This document shows, one piece after another, positions 24,747-28,523 of a stretch of DNA of 43,941 nucleotides (position 1 is its first letter; each line of letters opens with the position of its first letter). Both the position numbers and the translations under genes were made by a program. Below the pieces are notes generated by a model. It worked only from the letters and a program-made list of their open reading frames with translations. It was not told where the DNA came from and did not search any database. The stretch spans positions 1 through 43,941 of the forward strand of contig NZ_ATZE01000029.1 in NCBI RefSeq assembly GCF_000428045.1, given 5' to 3'. The DNA is from Sedimenticola selenatireducens DSM 17993 (GTDB lineage: Bacteria; Pseudomonadota; Gammaproteobacteria; Chromatiales; Chromatiaceae).

Positions 24747-27488
24747 GTGCAGGCGTTCATGCAAAGCCAGCGTCCACAGGTGGATGTGATCATCCCGGTG
24801 TACCGCGATCTGGCGGTGACACGCCGCTGTATCGAGTCGGTATTGAATACGTCCGCTGATCGCCGTGGCGAGGTTGTCGTGGTTGACGACGCCTCTCCCG
24901 ATGACGGTCTTTCAGGCTGGTGTGAGCGGCTATCTGCAAGCGGGCGGGTGACCCTGCTGCGCAACGACAGGAACCAGGGTTTCGTGGCCTCGGTCAACCG
25001 TGCCATGCGGCACTGCGCCGGGCACGATGTGGTGCTTCTGAACAGCGATACCGAGGTCGCCAATGACTGGCTGCAGCGGCTGGCGGATACCGCCTACGCA
25101 GCACCGGACATTGCCAGCGTCACCCCCTTCTCCAATAACGCCACCATCTGCAGCTATCCCTACCCCGAATGGCCGGGCGGGCTGCCGGGCGCACTCTCCC
25201 TGCAGGCGTTGGACAACTGCTTTGCGCAGGCCAATGCGGGTGCGTTTGTCGATATACCCACCGCCGTCGGGTTCTGCATGTATATCCGCAGGGCGGCCCT
25301 GGACCAGGTCGGCTATTTCGATGAAGCGGCCTTTGGCCGCGGTTACGGGGAAGAGAACGATTTCTGTCGGCGCGCCCTGGCCAGTGGCTGGCGCAATGTG
25401 CTCTGCGCCGGCCTGTTTGTCTATCACCAGGGCTCGGTCAGCTTCGGCGCGGACAAGGATGCCTTGGGCGACAGTGCCATGGCGGTGATTGAGCAGCGCT
25501 ACCCGGATTACCTACCGCAGGTCAGGCGCTTCATTGCACAGGATCCCCTGGAACCCCTGCGCAAAGCGGTGGACAGGGTGCGTGCCGCGTGCGGCGACCT
25601 GTTTCCGCTTGCCCTGCTCGCCACCGCCAACAGCAGCGAGGCGGAGGTGCTGGCCACGCTGCAGGATCTGCGGGTTCGTGGTCGTGATGAGGGGGTCACG
25701 CTGTTTTGTGAAGAAGAGGCCCTGCAGCGGGTGTTGAAGCGACGCCTGGCGGCGCGTCACGAGGTGATTTTCATGCCCGGACTGTGGGCGGCAGATGGAA
25801 TCCGCCGCCTGATGCAGAGTCGTTATGGCCCGGTTGACTATGTTCTGTTGCATGCCGGGGCCAGACTGCCGCCTGGCGGACCGGCCCTGCTGCATGTGGT
25901 ACATAGTTGGGGCGGCGGCGTGGAGCGCTGGGTGGAGCAGTTCTGCAAGGCGGATACGGCACATGAACACTATGTTCTGAGCGCCGCGGGCTGTGACTTT
26001 GCCCAGGGGGAGCGACTGCTGCTGCGCCGGGATGCTCCGGCAGGTGAGCTGATCGCAGAGTGGCGGCTTGCGCGACCGATCCATGCAACCGCGCTGTCAC
26101 ATAGCGAGTATCGACAAATACTGAGTGCGATTATCGCCCTCTTCGGTATTGATCGGGTGATGCTCTCCTCGTTGATCGGGCATGCGCTGGATGCGCTGGA
26201 AACGGGCTTGCCGACGATATGGGTCGCCCACGATCACTACCCCTGGTGTTCGTCCATCGTGCACTACTTTGAAGGCGTCTGTGAGCAGTGTGACTACGAT
26301 CGTTTGCAGCGTTGCCTGCAGCACAACCGGTTCGATTTCCTGAGCCGCTATTATAGTGCCGACGAAGCGATGCTGCTGCGGCAGCGTCTGCGCCGGCTGG
26401 TAAACTCCGAGCAGTTGACACTGGTGGCGCCGACCCGAGGCGTGAGTGAGCGTATCGGCGCACTGGTGCCGGGACTGGATACGACGCGCTGGCCGGTTAT
26501 TCCACACGGCCTGGAACTGAGCGAGCAACACCCCTCGTCAGCGGCTGCCGGGCCGGTGAAAAAATCAGCAAGAGCGGGTACGGCGCCTACGCGGGATACT
26601 GCAAAGACTTCGGGTGGGGTGGGCACGGCACCCATGCGGGATACTGCAAAAAAGTCAGGTAGGGTGGACACGCTTTTTGTGCCCACGCGGATACCTGGAG
26701 AGAGAAAAAGAGCGCTGGTGCTGGGACGCCTGCATCCCCACAAGGGGCAGCAGTTACTGCAGCAGGCCCTGCCCCGCCTGACACAACTGTGTGACATTGT
26801 GCTGCTGGGTGGGGGAGATGCTGCCCACCAGTTCGAGTCGGTTCCCGGCATCGAGATCATTCCCGTTTATGCGCATCATGCACTTGAACAGCATGTCCAT
26901 GACATCAACCCGGATTTCGCCATTCTCGCCTCCATTGTGCCGGAGACCTTTAGTTATACCCTCAGCGAGTTGTGGGCGCTGGGTGTTCCGCCGCTGGCTA
27001 CCGATATCGGGGCCTTTCATGAGCGCATAACGAATGGTGAAGACGGGTTACTGTACAGCCCGGATGCGGACGCTCTGGTGCAGGCCGTTCAGCGAATGGT
27101 GAATGATGAGCAACTGCTTGAGCATATTGCCGGAGTGGTAAGAGACAAATCACCCGTCACCATCGGCCAGATGGTCGAGGCGTACCTGGACTTGTTTACC
27201 GCACTGGAAGGCAGTGGCCGGCAACGCCAGCCGGTATCGAAAAGAGGCTATACGCTGGCGCAGTTCAGGGTGGTACTCGAGGCCCTCGTGTCACCGGCAC
27301 GTGCAGAGGCACAGCATGGCATTGCGCAGGTTGAAATCCTGCGCCAGGCGTTGCGTGTCTGCGAGTCCGACAAGCGGGAATTGGATGCACGGTTGAATGC
27401 CATACAGGGCTCCAGGGCATGGCGCTGGATCAAGGGCTTGCGTGGGTTTCGGCAGCGCTTGCTGAACAGGTTTGGAGATAAAAGATGA
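24747..27488 (+). CDS. Large two-domain glycosyltransferase (GT2 + GT4)
   Basis: This 913-residue cytoplasmic enzyme has two catalytic modules. Residues about 12-250 are GT2: VDVIIPVYRDLAVTRRCIES, the VVVDDASPDD nucleotide turn, the LLNSDTEV metal site and GRGYGEENDFCRRALASGW. Residues about 375-800 are GT-B/GT4: VVHSWGGGVERWVEQF, then VLGRLHPHKGQQLL, and PETFSYTLSELWALGVPPLA with the donor-binding Glu. A C-terminal helix ends SRAWRWIKGLRG, a motif common in such multidomain enzymes. A Lys/Thr-rich repeat insertion occupies residues 605-650 inside the GT4 module (separate entry). It starts with GTG at 24747; ATG at 24759 is the alternative. The stop overlaps the sulfotransferase ATG. It probably adds two residues or builds a repeat; the sugars are unknown. 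Confidence 0.88.
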   Translation: MQAFMQSQRPQVDVIIPVYRDLAVTRRCIESVLNTSADRRGEVVVVDDASPDDGLSGWCERLSASGRVTLLRNDRNQGFVASVNRAMRHCAGHDVVLLNSDTEVANDWLQRLADTAYAAPDIASVTPFSNNATICSYPYPEWPGGLPGALSLQALDNCFAQANAGAFVDIPTAVGFCMYIRRAALDQVGYFDEAAFGRGYGEENDFCRRALASGWRNVLCAGLFVYHQGSVSFGADKDALGDSAMAVIEQRYPDYLPQVRRFIAQDPLEPLRKAVDRVRAACGDLFPLALLATANSSEAEVLATLQDLRVRGRDEGVTLFCEEEALQRVLKRRLAARHEVIFMPGLWAADGIRRLMQSRYGPVDYVLLHAGARLPPGGPALLHVVHSWGGGVERWVEQFCKADTAHEHYVLSAAGCDFAQGERLLLRRDAPAGELIAEWRLARPIHATALSHSEYRQILSAIIALFGIDRVMLSSLIGHALDALETGLPTIWVAHDHYPWCSSIVHYFEGVCEQCDYDRLQRCLQHNRFDFLSRYYSADEAMLLRQRLRRLVNSEQLTLVAPTRGVSERIGALVPGLDTTRWPVIPHGLELSEQHPSSAAAGPVKKSARAGTAPTRDTAKTSGGVGTAPMRDTAKKSGRVDTLFVPTRIPGERKRALVLGRLHPHKGQQLLQQALPRLTQLCDIVLLGGGDAAHQFESVPGIEIIPVYAHHALEQHVHDINPDFAILASIVPETFSYTLSELWALGVPPLATDIGAFHERITNGEDGLLYSPDADALVQAVQRMVNDEQLLEHIAGVVRDKSPVTIGQMVEAYLDLFTALEGSGRQRQPVSKRGYTLAQFRVVLEALVSPARAEAQHGIAQVEILRQALRVCESDKRELDARLNAIQGSRAWRWIKGLRGFRQRLLNRFGDKR
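26559..26697 (+). repeat. In-frame tandem REP-derived insertion within the GT2-GT4 gene
   Basis: Three successive units of about 45 bases each contain a G-rich start, GGCACGGCNCC or similar, and GCGGGATACTGC. They translate as KSARAGTAPTRDTA, KTSGGVGTAPMRDTA and KKSGRVDTLFVPTRIPG. The third contains GTAGGGTGGACACGC and TTTTTGTGCCCACGCGG (26659-26690), the same palindromic repeat found free at 28486-28523. The whole insert keeps the reading frame. It falls just before the VLGRLHPHKG strand of the GT4 fold, probably as a surface loop. Confidence 0.8.
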
Positions 27489-28489
27489 CAGATCCAAAGG
27501 TTCTGTTTGGATTGCACATTACGAAATGTGCCGGCACCTCGATTCTCAAGGCGGCACAGTCGCAGTTGCCTGCTAGCCAGATCTACCAGGCCACGGCCCT
27601 GATCGAGAACTTCTGGCAGAACAGTAACGAGTTTTACGAGATTACCAATCACCAGGGGATACGGTTTTTTTTCGGTCATCATGTCTATGACGAGATGGTC
27701 AAGCTGTTCAACGATGTCTATCTCTTCACCTTCCTGCGGGATCCGATCGACAGGCATGTCAGCAACTTCAAGTTCCTCAACCGGCTTCGTTCCGATCTCT
27801 CGCTTCCCGCCATGTCGGTCGAAGAGTATATCGGCAGGGAGAACAGCATGTACAGTGAGTACAGCATGTGTGGTTTTATCCTGTCCAGATTTTCCGGCTT
27901 TGTTGACCCTGCAGCAGAGACAGCGGCAGAGAAGGCGATATCCGCCCTCAGCAAATTTGATTATGTCGGCGACCTGGCGACCCTGTCTGGTTTTTCCGAT
28001 GTCATGGCGGAATATCTTGGACTGGAGTTTTCCGGGATAACCAAAGAGAACGTCTCTCTGGCGGATGAAAATATCAATGATGAGGTTCTGGATGAGCTGG
28101 TTGAGTCACTCAATGCGGCTGATGATATTGAACTTTACCGGGCCTTCAAATCATCACCCGGCGGATTGCGGAATCCATTCCAGACCAGGCAGGCAGTGGA
28201 GTGGCGGAGTACGGTATTTGCTGCAGGCGAGTACGACTACGGGAAACTGGAGGACAGGTTGGTCAACAGTCTCTACTGGGAGTACCGTGATCATGGTGTC
28301 CTTGATCAGTTTCTCGATCTGATACCGCAGAAATTGTCGTTCCTTAACAAGTTTGTCGAAAAGGCGACACCGCAGCCTGAGGTCGTCGACGATCAGGATG
28401 GGACTGCACCGATCGAAATCGACACGCTGCTGGATACGCAGGATGGGTGGCTGAAACGGATTGCCAGGGCGGTTAAAAATTTAGGGTAG
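27485..28489 (+). CDS. Sulfotransferase family protein
   Basis: This 334-residue protein carries the two PAPS-binding signatures of sulfotransferases: the 5-prime phosphosulfate loop HITKCAGTSIL near the N-terminus, and the 3-prime phosphate site TFLRDPIDRHVSNFKFL around residues 78-95. The HH in FFGHHVYDEM is in the position typical of the sulfotransferase-2 / heparan-like group. It should transfer sulfate from PAPS to a hydroxyl, here probably on a glycan given the neighbours. The ATG overlaps the preceding stop (ATGA), so it is translationally coupled to the large glycosyltransferase. The C-terminal 50 residues are less conserved and acidic. The stop codon lies inside the flank of a palindromic repeat. 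Confidence 0.85.
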   Translation: MTDPKVLFGLHITKCAGTSILKAAQSQLPASQIYQATALIENFWQNSNEFYEITNHQGIRFFFGHHVYDEMVKLFNDVYLFTFLRDPIDRHVSNFKFLNRLRSDLSLPAMSVEEYIGRENSMYSEYSMCGFILSRFSGFVDPAAETAAEKAISALSKFDYVGDLATLSGFSDVMAEYLGLEFSGITKENVSLADENINDEVLDELVESLNAADDIELYRAFKSSPGGLRNPFQTRQAVEWRSTVFAAGEYDYGKLEDRLVNSLYWEYRDHGVLDQFLDLIPQKLSFLNKFVEKATPQPEVVDDQDGTAPIEIDTLLDTQDGWLKRIARAVKNLG

Positions 28490-28523
28490 GGTGGGCACGA
28501 AAAACGTGCCCGCCCTGCCACGC
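28486..28523. repeat. Intact GTAG-headed palindromic repeat between convergent genes
   Basis: GTAGGGTGGGCACG, a 4-base A loop and CGTGCCCGCCCTGCC form a strong hairpin (arms GGGCACG/CGTGCCC, extended by AGGG/CCCT). The repeat head supplies the TAG stop codon of the sulfotransferase. It sits between genes that converge, so it may also serve as a transcript end, though no T-run follows. Related copies are at 26659-26690 and, decayed, 16066-16120. Confidence 0.8.

Follow-up and report, generated by a model that had tools for sequence, protein, structure and literature searches.

The window, that is, the whole stretch of DNA that was analysed (43,941 nt), contains a glycosyltransferase gene whose reading frame runs through a tandem array of three units of 45, 45 and 50 nt (26556-26695; Table 1). 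Pfam domains were detected in its product at residues 14-188 (PF00535, GT2) and 654-787 (PF13692, GT4), and the frame is open across all 913 codons, array included. ORF and domains agree with the first-pass annotation, which had placed an in-frame insert in the GT4 half of the enzyme. A single E-x7-E stretch, which we take to be the GT4 motif, is present in the protein. The next gene, coding for a sulfotransferase-like protein (27485-28489), holds an 18-nt tandem repeat (1.9 copies, 88% match) at 27835-27869 and ends within a GTAG-headed palindrome.

Table 1. Features of the locus, with positions in the window
Feature	Position	Strand	Description and basis
GT2-GT4 glycosyltransferase gene hosting the insert	24747..27488	+	GTG start, 913 aa; ORF list, translation, Pfam
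Inserted segment	26556..26690	+	135 nt, 45 residues (604-648); missing from the 19 aligned GT4 modules of homologues; ends may shift by a few codons
Unit 1 (45 nt)	26556..26600	+	A-rich leader and degenerate REP, hairpin lost; -4.5 kcal/mol, z -0.05
Unit 2 (45 nt)	26601..26645	+	pairwise comparison; R1 match 15.2 bits (E 0.049) at 26608-26644
Unit 3 (50 nt)	26646..26695	+	A-rich leader plus full-length GTAG REP; model match 26653-26695, 62.4 bits
GTAG-headed symmetric palindrome, end of next gene	28485..28519	.	R1 22.5 bits on minus strand; fold -17.3 kcal/mol

An in-frame array in the linker of a GT4 module

The three units encode the peptides VKKSARAGTAPTRDT, AKTSGGVGTAPMRDT and AKKSGRVDTLFVPTR (residues 604-648). 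Three tandem units of about 45 bases had been proposed at 26559-26697, with about 46 extra residues at 605-650; the units are borne out at the coordinates given above, and the residue count is close to the 45 obtained from the alignment, on which the ends depend. TRF detected a 45-base period with 2.2 copies at 26576-26672. Pairwise identities were 30/45 (units 1 and 2), 34/44 (units 2 and 3) and 32/44 (units 1 and 3), and for each pair the observed score was reached in 0 of 1000 dinucleotide-preserving shuffles. Relative to unit 3, units 1 and 2 have a 6-nt loop deletion and one extra G in common, and are therefore probably sisters. An A-rich leader is common to all units, with agreement at 10 of 13 positions between units 1 and 3 and at 9 of 13 between units 2 and 3 (counted by hand from the pairwise comparison). 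The stem of unit 3 is mismatched, with one broken pair (-6.9 kcal/mol as DNA, z -0.8), and units 1 and 2 fold no better than shuffles.

An assembly artefact was considered and set aside, because a collapsed or expanded repeat is unlikely when the units are only 67-77% alike. Import of the array from elsewhere was likewise rejected: in a search of 55 genomes, with at most 15 first-look candidates scored per genome, no match to unit 1 or 2 was found among the scored candidates at E up to 0.01, and, apart from the match of the array to itself, none began before query position 90.

The two halves of the GT4 module were compared by tblastn with 121 loci from relatives and public genomes, the public loci being the best 80 of 593 confirmed stretches. 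The first half yielded 25 matches at E up to 1e-3. Two of these (L036, L037) hit places already counted and were dropped, as were four matches below the 1e-10 cut (L116, L128, L140, L143), whose linkers also appear short when judged by eye. A check for the absence of residues 605-650 from homologues had been suggested by the first-pass annotation, and all 19 homologous modules compared (17 loci, all in frame) lack the segment. The stretch from a conserved HG to a conserved G comprises 71 residues in the window protein as against 21-33 (median 24) in the homologues, and the motif RDTAK.SG had no occurrence in the six frames of the 121 loci. These homologues are only 32-44% identical to the window module (20-row alignment), and in the eight other genomes of the genus the protein has weak partial matches in five and none in three. 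For this reason the insertion is undatable, and its exact ends and any target duplication are unreadable; an insert-free allele from a close relative was not found among the homologues compared.

In the PDB, the AlphaFold2 model based on the 20-row alignment (pLDDT 80.8, pTM 0.81) matches GT-B glycosyltransferases best, GlgM, PglA and PimA among them, at TM-scores by query of about 0.5-0.57. Residues 594-647 form a low-confidence loop (pLDDT below 50), and the next strand, at 655-659, is the first of the C-terminal domain, in keeping with the earlier placement of the insert just before the first strand of the donor domain. The insert is thus predicted to be a longer disordered tether between the two domains of the GT4 module. 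A tolerated surface loop had been one of two suggestions made for it; the model agrees as far as a disordered linker is predicted, and passive tolerance of the array in a variable linker is the best reading. As the host linker varies in length anyway, the enzyme would tolerate the extension, and we infer that it is active.

Two other readings bear on the same data. A decaying gene, in which REP insertion would have inactivated the GT4 module and left the frame open by accident, is very unlikely. It could be argued from the lengthening of the interdomain linker and from departures of the window protein at 1 of 37 columns invariant in the 19 homologous modules (residue 409) and at 3 of 23 columns conserved in 18 of the 19 (residues 502, 503 and 530). 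Against it stand the 36 invariant residues that are kept, alongside 20 of the 23 nearly invariant ones, and the 913 open codons. In addition, the sequences beside the array have coding scores of 0.27 and 0.59 (coding median 0.52) by a dicodon score whose training set, 157 long frames (186,213 nt), includes those of the window itself. This score separates coding from shifted frames (5th percentile of coding, -0.04; 95th percentile of shifted, -0.18).

The other reading holds that the array is a selected functional linker. The spacing of the two GT4 domains would depend on how many 45-nt units are present, or the array would provide a binding segment, and strain variants would arise by slippage between units. 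The step from unit 1 to unit 2 is a multiple of three nucleotides, and differences between these units lean to third codon positions (9 of 15, with 1 and 5 at positions 1 and 2). This bias is based on only 15 differences, however, slippage should be damped between units just 67-77% alike, and the segment is predicted to be disordered; we regard such selection as most improbable. Even harder to credit is a contingency linker, by which gain or loss of whole 15-codon units would alter domain spacing and hence the surface-polysaccharide product between strains. If true, it would represent a REP domesticated at the protein level.

The REP family of unit 3 and its transposase

The family of unit 3 was described by an alignment of 41 copies (A1), including unit 3 and two other copies from its own genome, and a covariance model, R1, was built from it. 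The consensus is AGnCnG-GTAG-GGTGGGCACG-TTTTTT-GTGCCCACGCGGAT with an 8-bp stem, in which 97.2% of cells are paired over the 41 copies (slid controls, 12-62%). As no pair changed on both sides in the 41 copies, covariation does not support the stem. GTAG lies unpaired at one end, in columns 7-10 of A1, with columns 7 and 10 invariant and columns 8 and 9 conserved at 90% or more.

The earlier description of all three units as REP-derived applies clearly only to unit 3. Scoring of 150 of the 1776 first-look candidates in the own genome gave 20 listed R1 matches at E up to 1; five lie below 1e-5, and unit 3 has the highest score of all. Within the window, R1 has 18 matches when E values up to 10 are allowed; unit 2 is a weak one, and unit 1 is not one of them. 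Exact heads of the family (GTAGGGTGGGCAC) occur 4 times in the own genome; the eight other genomes of the genus (G001 to G008), in four of which the family is abundant, have 50, 42, 6, 9, 26, 48, 0 and 8, as against 0-1 for the reversed control. Outside the genus, there are 15 in G032, 2 in G012, 1 in G048 and none in the other 43 of the 55 genomes searched. In stretches around exact heads of three relatives (all 98 heads in G001 and G006, 31 of 42 in G002), R1 found 151 copies at E up to 0.001, with 48 inverted and no direct close pairs among them. A run of four A at the leader position occurs in just 7 of 170 REP copies, the window copy included, and a longer leader as part of the REP is unsupported by this count. 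About 10 nt of the leader are common to single copies in G002 and G008 and to single places in G040 and G054. In G054, a genome of another family, AAAAAGTCAGGTAGGGTGGACA (L170:1501-1550; G054:C57) matches the leader and head of unit 3, within a long symmetric palindrome of different loop.

The palindrome at 28486 had been considered the same as that of the last unit. The left arm is indeed common to both; the right arm is different, and the palindrome at 28486 is a near-symmetric 15-bp hairpin (z -5.7 as DNA). Its TAG at 28487-28489 is the stop codon of the sulfotransferase-like gene, and the coding score upstream is 0.5. A REP-like end has here turned into a gene end (28486-28489); among copies in relatives, the test for a GTAG-supplied stop was positive in 1 of 146. 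This second, near-symmetric form also occurs at two other places of the own genome, G000 (L006 about 1506-1540 and L012:1481-1513).

A 182-aa gene of G006 that is framed by REPs codes for a REP-associated tyrosine transposase, or RAYT (NCBIfam NF047646, E 2.2e-59; Pfam Y1_Tnp). Inverted REPs were present on both sides of the gene at all five fetched loci whose RAYT is at least 65% identical to it (in G002, G003, G004, G005 and G006, the G002 copy with an internal TGA), and REP matches were lacking at all eight fetched loci whose RAYT is 49-55% identical. A close relative of this cognate RAYT was not found in the own genome (best identity 27%, plus a 38% fragment with stops). Two distant RAYTs exceed the NF047646 cut-off there, and R1 matched none of the three RAYT-like loci L150, L151 and L325. 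G001 has its 50 exact heads, yet no RAYT above 57% identity, so that REP number is not simply tied to the RAYT. In G002, with 42 exact heads, the two RAYTs nearest the cognate type have an internal TGA or are split by stops (L299 G002:C26:369065, L294 G002:C24). A G006 locus (L259:1-2120, G006:C9) has a series of RAYT sequences separated by REPs, consisting of two genes that are 87% identical to each other and, as the third member, a gene fragment. This locus is close to a gene that is presumably mobA; a REP cluster in G002 (L290) lies beside a gene similar to this mobA-like gene.

REP copies and coding frames

Coding potential of both flanks was scored for 19 of the 20 listed own-genome matches, the weak 66-nt match C18:16060 being left out. 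No single REP passes. The window REP fails because its upstream flank consists of units 1 and 2 (-0.10); taken as a whole, the window array passes. In two other copies the frame runs on into a coding-like flank at one end and stays open for 5 and 20 codons, respectively, at the other. A search for the repeat elsewhere in the genome, and for its coding frames, had been proposed; the repeat does recur, and among the 19 copies tested only that of the window is in frame within a gene.

The corresponding test in relatives covers three of the eight other genomes of the genus, G001, G002 and G006. None of the 151 copies had both flanks in one frame in the first coding test; in six, both flanks look coding on one strand but the frames differ, as expected of gene junctions or interrupted genes. 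With a laxer cut, 1 of 151 passes (L214); it has no start codon before the REP and, in our judgement, looks like an antisense-frame artefact. Frames that cross the REP without a stop and look coding on at least one side numbered 26 in the relatives and 3 in the own genome, one of the latter being the window copy. Six of the 26 were read out, and the others are presumably gene starts, gene ends or antisense frames. With 1 of 19 own copies and 1 artefact-like copy of 151 in the relatives, read-through residence in genes looks rare in this REP family. The alternative suggestion of the first-pass annotation, a mobile element able to diversify proteins, is unsupported by these counts.

Origin of the array and relation to known elements

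Insertion of a REP, local in-frame tandem duplication and passive tolerance in a variable linker together very probably explain the array. A GTAG-family REP, probably moved by a RAYT, would have inserted where the gene encodes the linker leading to the C-terminal domain of the GT4 module. Together with about 13 nt of flank, this REP would then have been duplicated in tandem, the 45-nt (15-codon) step between units 1 and 2 keeping the frame. Units 1 and 2 would have decayed with loss of the hairpin while unit 3 stayed near consensus. If expressed, the array would be translated as an unstructured 45-residue linker extension that the enzyme tolerates, presumably at neutral cost. Duplication of one REP with its flank is indicated by the A-rich leader, which is present in all three units and rare in the family.

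What speaks against this explanation is the state of unit 3, which lies far nearer the consensus than the other two units; had all three decayed evenly after duplication, no such difference would be expected. For this reason, REPs that arrived separately, in two or three insertions at the same place, are a rival to be reckoned with: units 1 and 2 would be the decayed remains of an old REP, one unit being a duplicate of the other, and unit 3 a younger REP that landed beside them. Such a history would fit the common derived changes of the two decayed units (6-nt deletion, extra G) as well. It is less easily reconciled with the leader of all three units, given how few family copies have the four-A run, or with the lack of direct neighbours beside the inverted close pairs, and we consider it rather unlikely.

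Palindromic elements of Rickettsia (RPE) persist in frame within proteins, and by description the window case resembles them in that a palindromic repeat is kept in frame in a protein. It differs in its GTAG head, as the intragenic RPE-4 and RPE-6 of R. conorii correspond to CGTC repeats (PMC3733652). Text passages of the same report (Di Nocera et al., 2013) describe GTAG and CGTC REPs inside ORFs of several species, as well as clusters encoding 43-82 residues in Thauera and R. conorii. The passages also describe tandem reiteration with flanking DNA, direct dimers being rare, and TAG stops supplied to neighbouring genes by GTAG ends, and name flexible linkers or loops as likely neutral sites for intragenic REPs. 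With the GTAG/CGTC REPs of these passages the window case has in common a small GTAG palindrome in an ORF, a tandem arrangement with flank, a TAG stop (28486) and a linker site; it differs in its host, a GT2-GT4 enzyme, and in its REP, GTAGGGTGGGCACG-N6-GTGCCCACGCGGAT, a consensus not found in the text passages (Figure 1 and Additional file 3 aside). The earlier remark that no account was known for this repeat family may thus hold at most for the exact sequence, but not for intragenic REPs of the GTAG superfamily.

In passages of Nunvar et al. (2010; PMC2817692), inverted REPs are described on both sides of RAYT genes. The present family resembles these systems in its GTAG head and in the inverted REPs around the RAYT gene of relatives, and differs in that few copies are listed for its own genome, where a close RAYT was not found, and in that the window array is direct. 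In REPINs the unit is two REPs in inverted orientation; such pairs are seen in the genus relatives (48 inverted close pairs), whereas the window array is direct and no inverted pair. Given the precedents in the passages of PMC3733652 and PMC2817692, the window case belongs to a known kind of event: a translated REP is something already known to happen, and the present one is a well-documented further example.

It is a well-resolved case of a REP read as protein, with a homologue gap, an element family, a cognate transposase in sister species and a predicted disordered site. The counts hint at how seldom REPs of the unit 3 family are read as protein. As the best-scoring REP among the own-genome matches listed sits in a gene, 'extragenic' is for this family a tendency rather than a rule.
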